Of a stretch of 27,462 nt of DNA, positions 14,666 through 27,443 are shown piece after piece (position 1 is the first letter of the stretch; the number at the start of each line of letters is the position of its first letter). The stretch comes from Streptomyces katrae. Lineage in GTDB: Bacteria > Actinomycetota > Actinomycetes > Streptomycetales > Streptomycetaceae. Under the pieces are notes generated by a model. That model saw only the letters and a list, made by a program, of their open reading frames with translations, had not been told where the DNA came from and did not search any database. The position numbers and the translations under genes are program-made. The stretch is from NCBI RefSeq assembly GCF_000717655.1, contig NZ_JNZY01000056.1, forward strand, positions 1 through 27,462. Reading direction: 5' to 3'.

Positions 14666-15015
14666 ATGGGTGGGGAACTTGGGGATGCCCGGTTGTGGGC
14701 TGGTGAACTGCAGGCCTTGCACGAGCGGTTCGTACACCGTTTCTCCAGGTCGGAGCCGCGGGAGTCGGCTCTTGCCTATATGCGGGGGCTGGTAGCTCCG
14801 TTGGACGGAAGAACGGGTGGACGCTTGCCGAGGAGGCGGGGCATGCGGGTCTGGACCGGATCCATCGGCTGCTGAACCGGATCGAGTGGGCCGCGGACGA
14901 GGTCCTGGACGATGTGCGGGACTACGTCATCGATCACCTCGGCGACCCGGAAGCGGTGCTGATCGTGGACGACACGGGCTTCCTGAAGAAGGGTGTCCGC
15001 TCGGCCGGGGTCCAG
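14666..15015 (+). pseudogene. IS701-type transposase, N-terminal remnant
   Basis: LQALHERFVHRFSRSEPRES, then ALAYMRGLVAPL (from about 14706) is the standard N-terminus of IS701-group transposases. The frame is lost near 14808 and resumes as LNRIEWAADEVLDDVRDYVI, then LIVDDTGFLKKGVRSAGVQR, which holds the first catalytic Asp region. It then stops matching at about 15015, where a different protein begins. The upstream bases around 14612-14640 (CTAGTACTGCAACGGCG) resemble the left end of such an element inserted at a CTAG target; that part is recalled, not proven. Confidence 0.8.
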
Positions 15016-15404
15016 CGCCCCACCGAAGTGGTCATCGGCGCCATCACCGGCACCCTGGCACGCCCGCAGCTCCTGATCCTCGGCCGCCACGACCAGGCCG
15101 GCCGGCTGCGTGCGATCGGCCGCACCGTGCCGCTGCGCCCGGACGCTTCTCGGCAGATCGGCGACCACCTGGCCGCCACCGACACCGGACACCCGTGGAC
15201 TGGCGTACGGTTCGCCGTGTCCTGGGGCACGCGCGAGGCCCTGGACGCGGTCTTGGTCCGCCCCGAGCTGGTGGCGGAGATCAGCGCCGACCGGGCGATC
15301 GACTACGGTGGCGTCTTCCGCCAACCGCTGCGCTTCCAACGGCTACGCCTGGACGTGAGCGCCGACGACGTCCCGCGGTTCGGGGCGGGTTGGCCGCGAG
15401 CTGA
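15016..15404 (+). pseudogene. ATP-dependent DNA ligase, C-terminal fragment
   Basis: Directly in frame after the transposase remnant, the sequence becomes RPTEVVIGAITGTLARPQLL, RTVPLRPDASRQIGDHL, HPWTGVRFAVSW, LVAEISADRAIDYGGVFRQP, LRFQRLRLDVSADDVPRFG. This is the C-terminal OB-fold domain of an actinobacterial ATP-dependent DNA ligase. The nucleotidyltransferase domain with its catalytic Lys is missing. One extra G near 15390 shifts the last residues; without it the protein would end GLAAS at the stop at 15404. The gene was probably beheaded by a deletion between the IS and the ligase. Confidence 0.8.
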
Positions 15405-15440
15405 CACGGCAAGGCGCGGTCGCAGGACGTCAAAAACTAA

Positions 15441-15468
15441 GCAGGGCCGACCCGGGGGTCGGCCCTGC
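15441..15468. terminator. Perfect 13-bp hairpin after the ligase fragment
   Basis: GCAGGGCCGACCC (15441-15453) pairs perfectly with GGGTCGGCCCTGC (15456-15468). On the minus strand it is followed by TTAGTTTTTG, so it has intrinsic-terminator form in that direction and could act on both strands. Confidence 0.7.
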
Positions 15469-16000
15469 TGGTGCGGCACTCGCGCGGCAACGCGGTGCTG
15501 CTGTGTCCCTTGCGTGACGTCACCACTTCAGGGGGCCGCCGGTATACCCGACGGATCTATCCCCCACGGTGCCGGGGACTTGTCCTTGGGGCAAGTACAA
15601 CCGGGACGACGGTTGACGAACGAGGGCGTTCGTACCAGTGACGGGGGGCATCAATGGGGGCTGATTTGGGGTAGTTTGTGAACGGCCTGGCGGGCGCGGC
15701 GGCGAGGCGGGCGGAGCATGTCGCAGGTCAGAGGTGTTGCTTGAGAGATTGGACCCTGTGGACACTGGTGAACGAATTCCCGGCATTTCCGCCAGTGGGT
15801 GGTCAGCGGGCCCGCCCAGCGGCCGTGAGCGCTATCGGGTATCCCGGGGGTGCGTGCCATGCTGTGGTGACCGGGTCAGCGACGGCAATCGCCCCCGGAA
15901 ATACGCCACTTGGCGTTACGTCACCAGCGTGAGAGAGGGAAGTCCCGCGCCTTCGCACGCACGTCAGGGGGCCACCGCGTGGTACCCGGAAGGGAAAACC
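15469..16000. other. Intergenic region, no convincing gene
   Basis: About 530 bases without a supported coding frame. It holds a perfect 7-bp inverted repeat (ACGAACG at 15616-15622, CGTTCGT at 15627-15633). The left arm overlaps a TTGACG hexamer at 15613-15618 that could be a -35 element. It probably contains the promoter of the small membrane protein gene at 16001. Confidence 0.4.
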
Positions 16001-20743: not shown

Positions 20744-21661
20744 TCACAGGGGGTCGTGCACGGCGTTGTTCTGCTCGTCAGGCCTGCCCTCTGTAAGCCA
20801 GCCGGGTCCGATTTCACAGACCTGGTGGCCGTCGGGATAGGTGGCCAGGACGGGGCGGTGGGGACGGCTGTCCGGGCGCGGCGGCAGCACCCGTAGGAGG
20901 CGGCCGCGCGTCCGCAGCAGCCAGGTGACCAGGCGCCGGTCGCGTGCACGCGGCAGGGGCAGGCCGACCGCATGCAGGAGGGCGTCGTCCAGGCCTGCCA
21001 GGGAGTAGCGGCGCATCACCGGCTTGAGCGGGCCGCGCAGCGACTTGGGGAGCAACTCTTCGGTGAACGCCATGGCCCCTTCGGCCAGGCGCCGGCTGCT
21101 GCCGGTGACGGCGAAATGCAGGCGCTCGTATGACTGGGCGAACTGGTCGAAGTCGGCGAAGGTGGTCGGGACGTCCTTGATGCCCATGAGGTGGGCCAGG
21201 CGCCTGCCGTAGTTGGTCAGGGCCCGCTGTTCGTGCACGGTCAGCCGGCGCCAGCCGAACCGGTTGATCCACTGCGCCGGCGTGACGATGAACAGCGCGA
21301 TGGTGTACAGGTTGTCCTCGTTGCTGATGACGTAGCGCCGGTGCATCTGGTTCATGCGCCGCAGATAGGCCCGACCTTCGGGGCTTTCCAGGCCCAGGCG
21401 GCCCATCTCGTACATGATCAGCAGGGTGTCGTCTGCGCGTTTTTGGGTGTGGCCGACGATCTCGCCGGTCTCCTCGAGCAGGGCGCTGATGGACGGGATC
21501 GCGAAGGTGCGGAAGAAGGCCAGGGATACCGACTGCCAGTAGTCCCACGGGAACTCGTACGCGGTGACCAGCTGCCAGATCTCCTCGTAGTCCCGCTCCG
21601 GATCCAAACCCTGAATACGGCGAAGCCGGTCAAAGCGTCGTTGTGCAAAAGTCACAGACAA
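20744..21661 (-). CDS. MpaB/DUF2236-family oxygenase
   Basis: A protein of about 305 residues of the DUF2236 family, which includes the fungal oxygenase MpaB (cleaves a farnesyl chain) and latex-clearing protein Lcp (cleaves polyisoprene), both haem-dependent. Visible family features are DYEEIWQLVTAYEFPWD near the start, FFRTFAIPSISALLEETGEI, RMNQMHRRYVISNEDNLYTI with the conserved His region, and INRFGWRRLTVHEQRAL. The start is uncertain: TTG at 21661 (GGAG 5 bases upstream), GTG 21655 or ATG 21679. An IS5 remnant ends within about 30 bases upstream, so the native promoter may be lost. It is divergent from the MMPL-prenyltransferase operon, and a role in modifying an isoprenoid is only inferred. 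Confidence 0.82.
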   Translation of the reverse strand: MSVTFAQRRFDRLRRIQGLDPERDYEEIWQLVTAYEFPWDYWQSVSLAFFRTFAIPSISALLEETGEIVGHTQKRADDTLLIMYEMGRLGLESPEGRAYLRRMNQMHRRYVISNEDNLYTIALFIVTPAQWINRFGWRRLTVHEQRALTNYGRRLAHLMGIKDVPTTFADFDQFAQSYERLHFAVTGSSRRLAEGAMAFTEELLPKSLRGPLKPVMRRYSLAGLDDALLHAVGLPLPRARDRRLVTWLLRTRGRLLRVLPPRPDSRPHRPVLATYPDGHQVCEIGPGWLTEGRPDEQNNAVHDPL

Positions 21662-21687
21662 GCTGGCTCCAAGAAACATCGCTACCC

Positions 21688-21866
21688 GATGGGCGGTATG
21701 CCGCGGACGAGTGGCCCGAGGGCCTGCCGTGCAGGTTCGCCCCCGAGATCCCGACGGACAGGGGCAGACCGGTCCGCTCGGCGACGAAGTGGATCTTCGA
21801 CCCGAACTTGCGCCCGTCACCAGGATGCGGAGCCAGCAGCCCCCCTTTTTCAAGACCCGCATATGG
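21688..21866 (-). pseudogene. IS5-type transposase fragment
   Basis: The minus-strand peptide RKFGSKIHFVAERTGLPLSV, then GISGANLH, and after a one-base shift QALGPLVRGIPPI is the central part of an IS5-group transposase (the segment with SGANLHDSQAL, where the second catalytic Asp of DSQ is lost in the shift). Both ends are missing. It abuts the start of the MpaB-type gene, so the element may have replaced that gene's upstream region. Confidence 0.75.
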
Positions 21867-22123
21867 ACGAGATGGCCAGGGCCCCGCGGTAAGTACGCGT
21901 TTCGTCCTTTGAGCATTGTTGCGGCGCCGCCGACACTGTGCAGCCCCTCACAGGAGTGAAACCCGCACTGCCTCGCAGGATCCGGGCGAAGAGGCGGGGC
22001 GGCGCGCGGGCCTACGGCGTACCCGGGACACATGGGATGGCCGCCGTCAGGGACCGCCTCAAGCGGTGTACTACCGGGGCGGGCTCTGCGTAACTCCCGC
22101 TGTGGAGTGATCGTTGAAGGGCT

Positions 22124-24328
22124 GTGGCCGGACAGGAAGAGCATGCTGCTGCCGCTGGGAAGTGGACGAACGGCTCGTGGCTGTCCGGTGGTTTCGGCGT
22201 TGTAGGCATGGTCGTGTGGGGCTTGGCGGCGGTGGCCGCGGTGTTCGTCGTGGCCATCGGCCTGGGTGATCTGCGCAGTACAGGGTTGCCGGTGCCGAAG
22301 GGCGGTGACTCCCAGCGGGCTGGCCGTCTCATCGCGGACCGGATGCCGCAGCTGGGGGAGGAGCAGGCTGTTCTTGCTTTCTCCTCACAGCGGTTGCGCG
22401 GCGGGGATGCGGCCTATGACCGGGCCATGGTGGCGGCGGCGCAGGCGGCCGCCCGTGTGCGGGGGGCCGGCCAGGTGCTCGCGCTGCCTCAGGTGCCGGG
22501 GCAGGACCCCCATCACGCCTACCTTCTGGTGGCTTTGAAGGGCGATACCGCCGCACGGCTCGGCGGTCTTCCCGTTCTGCGCGAGGCCGTGCACCAGGCC
22601 GTGGCCACCGCCTCCGAGGGCCGTGTCACGGTGGCGGTGACCGGCCAGACGCCACTGGCGGAAGAGCTCGTGACCTCGGACCTCAGGGACGTGCGCGTCG
22701 TTGAAGCCGTCACGGTGCCCGTCGCCCTGATGCTGCTGGTCTACGGTCTCGGCTCGGTGGGGGCGGCCCTGCTGGTGCTGTTCACGGCCGGGCTCGGTGT
22801 TCTGGTCAGTGCGGGAATGGTGGCCGGGCTCGGGCTGATGATGCCCGTGGACACGCCCGCGCTGGTGGTGGCCATGACGATGGGCTTCGGGCTGGGCCTG
22901 GACTACGCGCTGCTGATTCTGATCCGCTACCGCCAGGCCAGAGCAGAGGGCCTCGGCCCGCAGACGGCCGCCGAACAGGCGACGGCGACGGCCGGGCGTG
23001 CGGTGCTGTGGTGCGCCGGAGCGGTGGTCGTCACCGGCGCTGCCCTGCTGACCGTCCCGGTAGAGCTGCTGCGTACGGTCGCGGTGGCGGCCGGTCTGGC
23101 CACTGTGGTGGCCGCGGGGGTGGCGACGACGCTGCTGCCGTTGCTCCTGCCCCGGCTCGATCGGCTGCTGTCGGCCGGGCGCGTCCGGCGGCCGGGTGAC
23201 GCGCGGGAGATCTGGGAGCGGTGGGCACGTCACCTGATGCGCCGCCCGTGGCCGTACCTGGGCAGTGCTGCCGTTCTGCTGGTGCTGGCCGCGCTGCCCA
23301 TGGCCGGCATGCGCTTGGGCGTGGATGTGGACCGTGCCTCGCTCACCGGCAGCGAAGTGGGCGCGGGACTGGCGCAGACGGAGCGCGACGGTCTGGCGAA
23401 CGTCACACTGCTGGCCCTGCCGCATGCCGCCGGCCAGGACCCTGTCGACACGACGGACCTCATCACTGCCCTGGCCGACGATCCGCGCATCACCACCGCC
23501 GTGGCGCTGGACAACGGCCGTGACCTGACCGTCGTCGCTGTCGCGGACCGGATCCCGGTGGACAGCCCCGCGGCCGGACAGCTGCTGGACGACGAACGCC
23601 GGCTCGGGCAGTCCACCCTGACCCAGGGGCAGAAGATTCTTGCCGGGGGAGGATCGGCTGCCCTAACCGACCTGCAGCGCGCAATGCGCTCCGCCCTCAC
23701 CCAGGTGGCGATCCTGGTCCTGGCGGGCGCCTTCCTGCTCATGCTCGTCGTCTTCCGCAGTCTTGTGCTGCCGGTGAAGGCGATCGCGATGAACCTGCTG
23801 GCCACCGGGGCGGCCTGCGGGCTGCTGAGCTGGTTCACCGGCCACACGGTCAACGTCCTCGTCCCTCTGATGGCCTTGACACTCGTCTTCGGCCTGTCGC
23901 TGGACTACGAAGTCTTCCTGGTGCACCGCATCACCGAGCACTACCGTGCCGGCGCCTCCTGCCAGGAGGCCGTGGTGCGCGGCCTGTCCAGCACGGCCCA
24001 GCCCATCACGCTCGCCGCCACCACCATGTCCGTCGTCTTCGCCGGCCTCCTCGTCACCGGCCGCCAAGAACTCCGGCAGGTCGGCTTCCTCGTGGCTGTC
24101 GCCGTCCTGCTCGACGCAACCGTCATCCGCCTTCTCGTCGTACCCGCTCTCATGCGTCTGCTCGGCCACCGCAACTGGTGGCTGCCCAGCCCCCTCGCCC
24201 GGCTGTGGCCACCCCTGCCCGTCCTGCACACCACCCCACAGGTCCCAGGGCAGGTCCCAGGGCCCAACAAGGCCGCCGACTCGTACACCACCACCGCCTG
24301 GTCACACAGTGAGGAACGCCCCTCATGA
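22124..24328 (+). CDS. MMPL-family RND transporter
   Basis: A 734-residue inner-membrane exporter of the MMPL/RND superfamily, driven by the proton gradient and typically moving lipids or polyketide-like molecules outward. It has two halves. Each has a hydrophobic helix (about 25-47 and 378-396) and a periplasmic domain, then a block of five helices (about 193-345 and 525-685). The proton-relay Asp-Tyr pairs typical of MmpL3 are present as GLDY (D260-Y261) and SLDY (D594-Y595). The end LLGHRNWWLPSP is a family signature. The tail carries a tandem 12-bp repeat (24239-24262) coding QVPGQVPG. The GTG start follows AAGG. Its stop overlaps the next start (ATGA), so the next gene is translationally coupled. 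The substrate is unknown; the operon suggests an isoprenoid. Confidence 0.92.
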   Translation: MAGQEEHAAAAGKWTNGSWLSGGFGVVGMVVWGLAAVAAVFVVAIGLGDLRSTGLPVPKGGDSQRAGRLIADRMPQLGEEQAVLAFSSQRLRGGDAAYDRAMVAAAQAAARVRGAGQVLALPQVPGQDPHHAYLLVALKGDTAARLGGLPVLREAVHQAVATASEGRVTVAVTGQTPLAEELVTSDLRDVRVVEAVTVPVALMLLVYGLGSVGAALLVLFTAGLGVLVSAGMVAGLGLMMPVDTPALVVAMTMGFGLGLDYALLILIRYRQARAEGLGPQTAAEQATATAGRAVLWCAGAVVVTGAALLTVPVELLRTVAVAAGLATVVAAGVATTLLPLLLPRLDRLLSAGRVRRPGDAREIWERWARHLMRRPWPYLGSAAVLLVLAALPMAGMRLGVDVDRASLTGSEVGAGLAQTERDGLANVTLLALPHAAGQDPVDTTDLITALADDPRITTAVALDNGRDLTVVAVADRIPVDSPAAGQLLDDERRLGQSTLTQGQKILAGGGSAALTDLQRAMRSALTQVAILVLAGAFLLMLVVFRSLVLPVKAIAMNLLATGAACGLLSWFTGHTVNVLVPLMALTLVFGLSLDYEVFLVHRITEHYRAGASCQEAVVRGLSSTAQPITLAATTMSVVFAGLLVTGRQELRQVGFLVAVAVLLDATVIRLLVVPALMRLLGHRNWWLPSPLARLWPPLPVLHTTPQVPGQVPGPNKAADSYTTTAWSHSEERPS

Positions 24329-24927
24329 ACATCACCACGCCGACACCGTCCACTTGGCGGACCTGGACGGCAGCGACCGCCGTTCTTCTCACCACGGCCA
24401 CTCTCACCGCTCCGGCCGCCACACCCGCCGCAGCACGCACCACCGCCATCGCGGCGAACACACCTCACACAGCCCTGTCCTGCCGGGCCGCGACCCCACC
24501 GGGCCGCCCCCTCACCTTCACGCCCGCGCTCACCTTGAGCCAGCGCACCACCCGCATCACAGCAACCCTCCGCCTCACCGGATGCACCACCCCCAACGGT
24601 CACCACCCCCAGCTACGCAGCGCCACCCTCACCCTCGACGGCACCGCCCGGGCCGGATGCAGCGGCGCCTCCACCCCGGACGGCTCCGCACGCATCACCT
24701 GGTACAACGCCCAAGGCCACCACACCGGAACTTCCACCGTCCAGTCAACCCCGCGCTTCGTCAGCAGCTACAACCCCGGCGACGCCCTCCTCAGCGGACG
24801 GGTCACACAAGGCCCGCTGCACGGAACCCGGATGACCGGAACCGCCACACCCACCAGCGACGTCAGCGGCTGCGCCGCCCATGGGCTACGTACCCTGTCC
24901 GCCACCGGAACGCTGAAATTCCAGTGA
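24325..24927 (+). CDS. Secreted four-cysteine hypothetical protein
   Basis: A 200-residue exported protein. The signal peptide spans about residues 1-38 (WRTW, then the hydrophobic ATAVLLTTATLTA and APAATPAAA). The mature part is Thr-rich and beta-strand-like (TFTPALTLSQRTTRITATL, RSATLTLDGTARAG) with four Cys at 53, 87, 112 and 183, enough for two disulfides. The family is unrecognised, though similar secreted Streptomyces proteins of unknown function are common. The ATG overlaps the MMPL stop, so it probably works with the exporter, perhaps as an extracytoplasmic partner or carrier; that is inference. Confidence 0.85.
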   Translation: MNITTPTPSTWRTWTAATAVLLTTATLTAPAATPAAARTTAIAANTPHTALSCRAATPPGRPLTFTPALTLSQRTTRITATLRLTGCTTPNGHHPQLRSATLTLDGTARAGCSGASTPDGSARITWYNAQGHHTGTSTVQSTPRFVSSYNPGDALLSGRVTQGPLHGTRMTGTATPTSDVSGCAAHGLRTLSATGTLKFQ

Positions 24928-24967: not shown

Positions 24968-25000
24968 CAGTCCCGCTTCTCCTCGCTGCGTGGAGGCCAC

Positions 25001-26794
25001 GTGATCCATACCGCCTACTCCGGGGCGAGCCTGCATGACGCACGTCTGCGGGAGGCGTACAAGGTGTGCCTGCGCCTGCTCCGGCGGCGCTACCCCAGCG
25101 AGAGCGACTGCCTGGCAGTGCTGCCCGCCAAGGTGCTGCTCAGTTTGTCCCCGGTGCTGGCATCCGGGAGCGTGATCGACGACCTGTCGGACAACGGAGC
25201 GGCGTCGGCGGACGAGCGTGCGGGACAGGCGTCGGCCTGGATCAGGATGCTGGAAGAAGACATCGAGCGCGGTGACAGCACCGATCCCGTGCGCCGGGCG
25301 ATGGCACACCTGACACGGACGCTAGACCTGCCGGCCGACAGCGTGCGGCTGATGCACGAACGGATCGCCCGGGACGCAGTCAAGGCCACCCCGCAGACAT
25401 GGCAGGAATGGGCGGAATACCAACGAGCGGCCCTGGGCCCGATCCTCATCGCGGTGGACTGCGTCACCTCACGGCTCGGAGCGCCCCTGATCATGTCCGC
25501 GGGACACGAAGCGGCACTGGTAGACGCCATGCTCGGCTTCCAGCTGACCGACGACCTGACGGACTTCGCCGAAGACCTTGAGCGTGGCTACGTAAAACTC
25601 CCCGCGGAGGCACTGGACGGGTGCGGCGTGTCAGCCGAGGACCTCCTCGCCCGCCGGTGGACACCGGCCACCGCCCGCCTGGTGCGGGCCGCGACCGAAC
25701 GGGCACGCGCATGGCTCCAGCCGCAGGAGCCCACCGTCCACTGGTCCATCACCTCAGCCCTGCTCACCCGGGCGTTCACGAACGTGTACCTAGCCGCGCT
25801 GCACAAGGTCGAACGCGCCGGCCCCGCCCTCCTGTCGCAGAAAGTCACTCTCTCCTCCGCCGCCCGGCAGCGCATCCTGCTGCCCACCCGCGCGGCGGCA
25901 GCCGTGGCCTGGAAACTCAGCCCCTACGCACGCCATACGCCCACGGCCCCCACCCCGCACGAGCAGCGTGCCGCAGCAGACCTTTCCGGCCGTCTGCCCG
26001 CCCCGCGCGGCCGGATGCTGCCCCCGGCACCCCACCCGTCCGGAGCGCGACCACCCGTCCTCAACCCCGCGGCGTTGCCCCGGCACGTGGCCGTCATCAT
26101 GGACGGCAACGGCCGCTGGGCCGCCGACCGTGCCCTCCCCCGCGCCGAAGGGTACCGGGCGGGAGCCAACGCACTGCGGGACGTCGTAGACGGCGCTCTG
26201 GAGATCGGACTGCCCTGCCTGACGGTCTACGCCTTCTCCACCGAGAACTGGAACCGCTCCTCCACCGAGGTCGAAGCCATCTTGGACGTGGTACGAGACA
26301 ACATCGCAGACCAGGAGTTGTTCGACCGCGACCTGCGGTTCTGCTGGGCAGGCGTGCCCGACGGACTCCCCAAGGACCTCGTCGACGGGCTCCGGGAACG
26401 TGAGCGCACCACCCAGCACCGCACCAGCCTCACGTTCACCATGTGCGTCAACTACGGCGGTCGCAGCGAGCTGGCCCAAGCCGCCCGAAGCCTCGCCCGG
26501 GCAGCCATGGCCGGCGAAATCAACCCAGCACACATCGATCAGCGAGCCCTCGCCCGGCATCTGCCCCACCCTGTCCCCGACGTCGACCTGCTCTGGCGCA
26601 CCGGCGGGGAACAACGCACATCCAACTTCCTGCCCTGGCAGAGCTCCTACGCCGAACTGCTCTTCACCCCCACCTACTGGCCGGACATCGACCGCCGTGA
26701 TCTATGGCAGTCCATCACCACCTACACGCAACGCCAGCGCCGCTACGGCACCGCGCCCATCGAGAACACCGCCCCGATGTCGAGCTCAAAGTGA
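25001..26794 (+). CDS. Fused squalene/phytoene-synthase-like and cis-prenyltransferase protein
   Basis: A 597-residue two-domain protein. The N-terminal domain (about 12-300) matches the squalene/phytoene synthase fold: first Asp motif DDLSD (60-64), a helix WAEYQRAALGPILIAVDCVT (137-156) and second Asp motif LTDDLTDFAEDLERGYVKLP (182-201). Such enzymes join two prenyl diphosphates head to head. After a Pro/Ala linker (about 310-358) comes a complete UppS-type cis-prenyltransferase (359-585): MDGNGRWA (367-374, catalytic D368), YAFSTENW (410-417), NYGGRSEL and RTGGEQRTSNFLPWQSSYAE (533-552). The usual active-site His (GHxAG) is Tyr here (GYRAG, 384-388). The GTG follows TGGAGGCC. It lies 73 bases after the secreted protein gene in an apparent operon with the MMPL exporter. 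The product is unknown: a long cis-polyprenol, or an irregular terpene as made by lavandulyl-type UppS relatives, are both possible. Confidence 0.93.
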   Translation: MIHTAYSGASLHDARLREAYKVCLRLLRRRYPSESDCLAVLPAKVLLSLSPVLASGSVIDDLSDNGAASADERAGQASAWIRMLEEDIERGDSTDPVRRAMAHLTRTLDLPADSVRLMHERIARDAVKATPQTWQEWAEYQRAALGPILIAVDCVTSRLGAPLIMSAGHEAALVDAMLGFQLTDDLTDFAEDLERGYVKLPAEALDGCGVSAEDLLARRWTPATARLVRAATERARAWLQPQEPTVHWSITSALLTRAFTNVYLAALHKVERAGPALLSQKVTLSSAARQRILLPTRAAAAVAWKLSPYARHTPTAPTPHEQRAAADLSGRLPAPRGRMLPPAPHPSGARPPVLNPAALPRHVAVIMDGNGRWAADRALPRAEGYRAGANALRDVVDGALEIGLPCLTVYAFSTENWNRSSTEVEAILDVVRDNIADQELFDRDLRFCWAGVPDGLPKDLVDGLRERERTTQHRTSLTFTMCVNYGGRSELAQAARSLARAAMAGEINPAHIDQRALARHLPHPVPDVDLLWRTGGEQRTSNFLPWQSSYAELLFTPTYWPDIDRRDLWQSITTYTQRQRRYGTAPIENTAPMSSSK

Positions 26795-27364: not shown

Positions 27365-27443
27365 GCAGCGCACAGCCCGGCACGATTCGGCCTCCCCTGG
27401 GGAAGGAAGGGGAGGCCGATTTCGGTACCGGGCTGTGCGCTGC
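27365..27443. terminator. Compound nested hairpin near the right edge
   Basis: GCAGCGCACAGCCCGG (27365-27380) pairs exactly with 27428-27443 (16 bp). Inside, TCGGCCTCCCC (27387-27397) pairs exactly with 27409-27419 (11 bp), followed by TTT on the plus strand. The inner hairpin is a good intrinsic terminator; the outer stem makes a much larger structure that may be part of a bidirectional terminator or a structured RNA. Confidence 0.7.

Follow-up and report, generated by a model that had tools for sequence, protein, structure and literature searches.

Phytoene-synthase-like prenyltransferases such as LvqB4 (7vws), CqsB4 (7vwt), NzsG, DmtC1 and NozPT belong to carbazole or indole diketopiperazine pathways and are not described as fusions to cis-prenyltransferases. 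NzsG places the prenyl group of dimethylallyl diphosphate (DMAPP) on carbazole and CqsB4 is essential for prenylation (passages of PMC7466098); DmtC1 condenses farnesyl diphosphate (FPP) onto Trp-containing diketopiperazines in vitro (passages of PMC6173783), and NozPT requires DMAPP (passages of PMC10156859). Here we describe a gene of Streptomyces katrae in which a squalene/phytoene synthase-like (SQS/PSY-like) N-terminal half (N half) is joined in one open frame to a C-terminal cis-prenyltransferase half (C half). The gene lies in a stretch of 27,462 nucleotides (assembly GCF_000717655.1, contig NZ_JNZY01000056.1, positions 1 to 27,462, forward strand), referred to below as the window.

LvqB4 and CqsB4, the two known phytoene-synthase-like sequences compared, share with the N half the SQS fold, two aspartate motifs and an Asp as first residue of the second motif (motif 2). 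In structure alignments they are 21% and 19% identical to the N half, respectively, and LvqB4 covers it entirely; nothing of the carbazole or indole diketopiperazine pathways was recognised at this locus. The squalene and phytoene synthases HpnC, HpnD, CrtM and CrtB share with the N half the fold and the metal-binding aspartates, but in the 25 head-to-head-type sequences sampled motif 2 begins with Asn or Glu and has Arg or Gln three residues on, where the fusion family has Asp and a variable residue. Thermobifida fusca dodecaprenyl diphosphate synthase (7cpm/7cpn) and other actinobacterial UppS enzymes are stand-alone proteins, unlike the fusion, and carry His at the position of Tyr385 in the window. 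Cyclolavandulyl diphosphate synthase, which has the cis-prenyltransferase fold, is a distant match of the C half (E about 1e-12); it supplies the donor for LvqB4, a division of labour like that proposed here for the two halves, although in that case two separate proteins are involved.

The fusion and its recurrence

Pfam assigned the N half to SQS_PSY with 72.2 bits (cut-off 26) and the C half to Prenyltransf with 233.7 bits (cut-off 27), both within a 597-aa frame (Table 1), and structure prediction likewise gave an SQS/PSY fold followed by a cis-prenyltransferase; the single-frame fusion proposed in an earlier note on this DNA is thereby borne out. The Pro/Ala linker named there was also found, with residues 311–332 below 50 in predicted local distance difference test (pLDDT) score, and the motif PHPSGARPP at its end, leading into the cis-prenyltransferase half, is common to the fusion and the stand-alone enzyme 7cpm. 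A database search with the fusion protein gave 152 matches, 120 of which were listed (window protein included) with domains from precomputed Pfam assignments; both domains were present in 112 of the 120, and 8 were without the SQS half. An assembly artefact or two separate genes can be excluded, since a 602-aa database relative is 82% identical to the fusion across its entire length and both domains recur in these 112 listed homologues. Named hosts among the listed homologues are mostly Streptomyces, with Embleya, Kitasatospora, Amycolatopsis, Actinokineospora and Solihabitans also represented, and many entries bear the name 'polyprenyl diphosphate synthase', which derives from the second half. 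No paper describing an SQS/PSY plus cis-prenyltransferase fusion was found in the open-licence literature, to which the search was confined, in agreement with the earlier remark that no characterised enzyme of this domain order was known; PMC7839719 contained 'fusion' 0 times and 'fused' once, with no passage seen on such a protein.

Among 150 sampled genomes of the window's genus, its own included, N-half matches at E <= 1e-20 were obtained in 21; the match in genome G077 is a separate gene (315-aa frame), which leaves 20 of 150 genomes with the N half in a gene of the fused kind. Both halves were present in 17 of 20 further loci fetched from the genus matches, and the remaining three (L112, L115, L123) are cut by a contig end that falls ahead of the second half. 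A stop codon was seen in the N-half frame of the fusion in L095 (G104) and L107 (G027), and from these some copies may have decayed. One further fusion, L008, was recovered among 80 loci from a search of genome contigs, the rest of which match the cis-prenyltransferase half only. This recurrence in the genus, and the transporters that adjoin or are joined to some relatives, had escaped the earlier note.

Longer forms were also found. Sixteen of the 120 listed homologues are 860–910 aa long, and their extra N-terminal part matched an ABC-2 transporter model below cut-off in two of three scanned and gave no match in the third. The N-terminal 257 residues of the fused protein P0044 match places in 71 of 295 genus genomes, and a gene related to this part of P0044 adjoins the fusion in L008 and passes the ABC2 cut-off. 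A 1116-aa form (P0121, L117:8429-11779) carries a part resembling flavin adenine dinucleotide (FAD)-binding proteins ahead of the SQS and cis-prenyltransferase halves and is directly followed by an MMPL gene; the FAD-binding-like part gave weak matches to several FAD-enzyme models, geranylgeranyl reductase included. Trees made by a quick method are compatible with either a shared or a separate origin of the diverged fusions (P0111, P0115 and kin).

Conserved residues of the two halves

Both aspartate motifs reported earlier are present and conserved: in an alignment of 50 relatives, the window's protein among them, D60 and D192 are invariant, D184 and D188 each occur in 49, D64 in 48 and D61 in 40. 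The first residue of motif 2 was D in 49 of these fusions and E in one, and the window residues D184, T187, D188 and D192 depart from the [N/E]xx[R/Q]DxxxD form of head-to-head-type enzymes. For comparison, 25 head-to-head-type sequences (HpnC, a CrtM-like enzyme, 5iys and 22 of 38 available stand-alone rows) were read by alignment column: 23 start motif 2 with N and 2 with E, and all 25 have R or Q three residues further on. Of 30 sequences from the fusion family and kin (18 fusions, P0122 as a stand-alone protein, LvqB4, CqsB4, the own-genome copy and 8 of the 21 copies linked to exporters), 28 start it with D, one with E and one with N, and the residue three places on varies. A regular-expression count matched 110 of 112 homologue (P) rows, 95 with D first and the other 15 partly misplaced matches perhaps; it gave 20 D and 1 N for the 21 exporter-linked rows, and 34 N, 3 E and 1 D for the 38 stand-alone rows, in which some sequences are counted twice. 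In a careful tree the 25 head-to-head-type sequences stood apart from the 30 others with support of 99/97 (N-type row L251 included), the branch otherwise having 87/62, although a tree placing LvqB4 and CqsB4 with the 25 is not rejected. Structure matches to the N-half model extended over residues 1–317 for LvqB4 and 14–297 for the CrtM-like enzyme, and 7999 scored candidates contained one stand-alone near relative of the window N half. From the motif 2 pattern of the 30 against the 25, a prenyltransferase working like LvqB4 or DmtC1 is favoured for the N half, with moderate confidence, over head-to-head condensation.

The C half is closest to dodecaprenyl diphosphate synthase (54% identity) and groups with actinobacterial housekeeping-type enzymes (support 100, quick tree). 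The UppS core recognised earlier stands: 13 core residues (D368, N370, R372, W373, S413, E415, N416, R419, E423, R533, R539, S541 and E552), among which we presume the catalytic ones to lie, were kept in all 50 aligned relatives. Position 385, presumably H43 of E. coli undecaprenyl diphosphate synthase (UPPS), follows the conserved Gly 384 and is His in 46 of 50, and Tyr in the window and three of the other 49. A sequencing error is an unlikely source of Tyr385, because P0002 (82% identical) also has Tyr. The spacing from E423 to W449 was 26 residues in the window and in 69 of the 120 homologue rows (8 of the 120 without the SQS half), against 28 in 7cpm and in 76 of 81 stand-alone rows, from which L008, itself a fusion, was excluded. 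This helix region influences chain length, so a C-half product shorter than C60 is possible.

Genes around the fusion and related exporter loci

Table 1. Positions of the fusion gene, its parts and its neighbours in the window (residue numbers refer to the 597-aa protein).
Feature	Position	Strand	Basis
Fusion gene, SQS/PSY-like half + cis-prenyltransferase half, 597 aa	25001..26794	+	single open frame, GTG start
GGAGG, probable ribosome-binding site of fusion gene	24992..24996	+	read by eye
SQS_PSY domain, residues 55-285	25163..25855	+	Pfam
First aspartate motif DDLSD, residues 60-64	25178..25192	+	alignment
Second aspartate motif, residues 184-192 (D184, D188, D192)	25550..25576	+	alignment
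Linker, residues 307-350	25919..26050	+	partly low-confidence in predicted structure
cis-Prenyltransferase (Prenyltransf) domain, residues 366-583	26096..26749	+	Pfam + sequence/structure relatives
Tyr385 codon	26153..26155	+	alignment of 50 relatives
MMPL-family transporter gene upstream of fusion	22124..24328 (start perhaps 22208)	+	frames, Pfam, models
200-aa protein without a recognised family; N-terminus hydrophobic by eye	24325..24927	+	frames, Pfam
MPAB/Lcp-type oxygenase-like gene upstream of fusion	20744..22144 (true start perhaps near 21607)	-	domain matches

The MMPL gene, the gene for the 200-aa protein and the fusion lie on the same strand with a 4-base overlap and then a 73-base gap before the fusion, which suggests an operon. 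MPAB/Lcp-type oxygenase-like genes were seen near two fusions, in the window and at L111:7974-8723 (-); Lcp enzymes cleave cis-polyisoprene. Such an oxygenase is not claimed as a constant partner: of 20 genomes, two (that of the window and G067) have one at most 7 kb away from the fusion. Scans for promoters, terminators and Rfam families yielded nothing of use. A 19-nt inverted repeat with arms 41 nt apart lies near the window end (27365-27443), and the frame 14914-15681 (+) weakly matches a DDE-type transposase domain, with a score under the cut-off.

Neighbours were compared in 22 fusion loci (window, L008 and L110–L129; L010 was dropped as a stand-alone UppS), with genes of fetched loci called by a script scoring G+C by codon position, so that starts are rough. 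An ATP-binding cassette (ABC) ATPase and permease adjoin the fusion in five (L008, L119, L121 and L124 on the same strand, L128 on the opposite strand), a DUF6230 and DUF6114 pair is directly upstream in another five (L110, L111, L112, L116, L118), an MMPL gene is close to it in two (window, L117) and a BrkB-type membrane protein is near it in two (L115, L120; Pfam run on L120). DUF6114 was confirmed in all five pairs, and DUF6230 by Pfam in L110 and L111 and by sequence clustering in the rest; DUF6114 has 2–5 copies per genome in ten genomes checked, five of which were picked for having the pair.

Eighty permease loci of at most 14.8 kb each, mutually related and chosen by query with the N-terminal part of P0044, were then scanned. 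All 80 have an ABC ATPase gene; SQS-like genes occur in 21, cis-prenyltransferase genes in 12 and trans-polyprenyl synthase genes in 31 (19 with E < 1e-60). At least one of the three is present in 42 loci (30 with strict trans-synthase scores) and none in 38. Ten of the genomes, of about 9 Mb each, have 43 SQS_PSY genes and 61 for polyprenyl synthases, from which about 0.6 (SQS_PSY) and 0.8 (polyprenyl synthase) loci of 80 would be expected by chance. The SQS-like and cis-prenyltransferase parts share one frame in nine loci, in L228 together with the permease. L216 and L218 have separate D-type SQS-like and cis-prenyltransferase genes, accompanied by the exporter and by one polyprenyl synthase or two (Pfam run on examples); the L216 cis-prenyltransferase differs from the fused one and, among solved structures, best matches 8wu7 and a short-chain Z-isoprenyl diphosphate synthetase, and this split form has 94 database relatives. 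In L251 the genes for the SQS, the cis-prenyltransferase and a trans-prenyl synthase are separate as well, but the locus was not grouped with these two because its SQS is N-type. In seven loci an SQS-like gene and a trans-prenyl synthase occur without a cis-prenyltransferase. Taken from the fused, split and trans-synthase-only forms, the recurring unit is an SQS-like enzyme, a prenyl diphosphate synthase and an exporter, of which the fusion looks like one form. Fifteen of the 80 loci have a WS/DGAT-type acyltransferase gene, strongly scoring in 7; of the fifteen, L250 and L265 also have a fusion. The loci L213, L214, L215, L217 and L219 have the same kind of exporter, trans-polyprenyl synthases and a WS/DGAT-type acyltransferase, with no SQS-like gene found, and are perhaps a prenyl ester pathway; a PAP2-like protein (below cut-off) adjoins the exporter in at least L215.

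Three further SQS_PSY genes are present in the window's genome, as an adjacent pair and a diverged copy. The pair adjoins FAD-protein, polyprenyl-synthase and cyclase-like genes, by eye a squalene/hopanoid cluster. The diverged copy (L159:9569-10504, -) is a stand-alone SQS-like gene with Asp in motif 2 and was matched in 13 of 61 genomes (E no higher than 8.1e-30); no relative of it lay within four called genes of a cis-prenyltransferase in 11 loci, of which L168 is a 3-kb contig and L180 is carotenoid-type by eye. Nothing was drawn from the ABC genes beside this copy, none being seen near the L181 copy (83% identical). Two further cis-prenyltransferases were also found in this genome, one of them closest to a short-chain Z-isoprenyl diphosphate synthetase.

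Possible function of the fusion

Our preferred reading, held tentatively and a little short of evenly balanced, is that the fusion is a two-step isoprenoid enzyme which makes a Z-prenyl diphosphate and moves its prenyl group to a non-prenyl acceptor, the product being exported. By family and kept residues, the C half would extend an allylic diphosphate with isopentenyl diphosphate (IPP). The N half would then use Mg2+, bound by D60/D64 and D184/D188/D192, to ionise the Z-prenyl diphosphate and, like phytoene-synthase-like prenyltransferases, would pass its prenyl group to an acceptor that is not another prenyl diphosphate. Judging by gene order, export of the lipophilic product would be through the transporter encoded nearby or joined to the enzyme, an MMPL protein in the window and an ABC-2 exporter in a number of relatives. 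Several points weigh against this. The identity of the N half to LvqB4 is low, HpnC and LvqB4 have equal scores in the profile search, and a tree that groups LvqB4/CqsB4 with the head-to-head-type enzymes was not rejected (p-AU 0.266); most members of the comparison set of 25 were taken as head-to-head by family rather than by assay. No acceptor-making gene was recognised in the window, the 22 fusion loci have no single constant neighbour, and 8 of them are without any of the membrane-protein neighbours counted.

It is unlikely, if conceivable, that the N half is instead a diphosphate-removing terpene synthase or phosphatase, so that the cis-prenyl diphosphate would yield an alcohol or a cyclic terpene, which is perhaps acylated and is exported. 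The N half has a more distant profile match to YisP, an SQS-fold protein with phosphatase activity, and the acyltransferases of the permease loci and the PAP2-like protein beside some exporters would fit such a route; no such acyltransferase was recognised near the window fusion, however, it is absent from 7 of the 9 permease loci with a fusion, and the single PAP2 match tested falls below cut-off.

Head-to-head condensation, the activity suggested earlier for the N half, is now weakened and appears improbable; it would join two prenyl diphosphates, at least one of them made by the C half, into a hydrocarbon that resembles squalene or phytoene and has Z double bonds. The SQS fold and the SQS_PSY match above cut-off agree with it, NCBIfam HpnD and HpnC match below their cut-offs, HpnC (4hd1) is the top profile match among solved structures, and the MMPL proteins beside two fusions match hopanoid/sterol transporter models, albeit far below cut-off and after general MMPL models. 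Against it stand the Asp in place of Asn or Glu at the start of motif 2, where the following Arg/Gln is not kept, and the other SQS_PSY pair of the genome in its squalene/hopanoid cluster.

That the N half is a non-catalytic partner, one that determines either the chain length made by an extra long-chain cis-prenyltransferase for carrier lipid only or where that enzyme is located, is very unlikely: the two other cis-prenyltransferases of the genome mean that the fusion copy is probably accessory, and SQS-type halves change faster (0.35 vs 0.20 for window–P0003 and 0.58 vs 0.21 for window–P0005, using only pairs printed in both trees), but the metal-binding aspartates are kept almost throughout, and the seven loci with an SQS-like gene, exporter and trans-prenyl synthase without a cis-prenyltransferase suggest an enzyme in its own right.

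Under the prenyltransferase reading, a broader picture can be drawn, which we regard as doubtful: a Streptomyces single-chain 'make and export' family (ABC-2 permease, SQS-fold prenyltransferase and cis-prenyltransferase in 860–910 aa beside an ABC ATPase), with two-domain forms that have a separate ABC or MMPL exporter and a FAD-binding form, might make and secrete a new class of Z-prenylated lipid. Naming these proteins from the second half has left the first half and the nearby exporters overlooked. Should the N half be a prenyltransferase that is supplied by the donor-making domain of the same protein, donor supply and transfer would be paired by encoding, perhaps together with export, and the fusion would point to an undescribed lipid or natural product.
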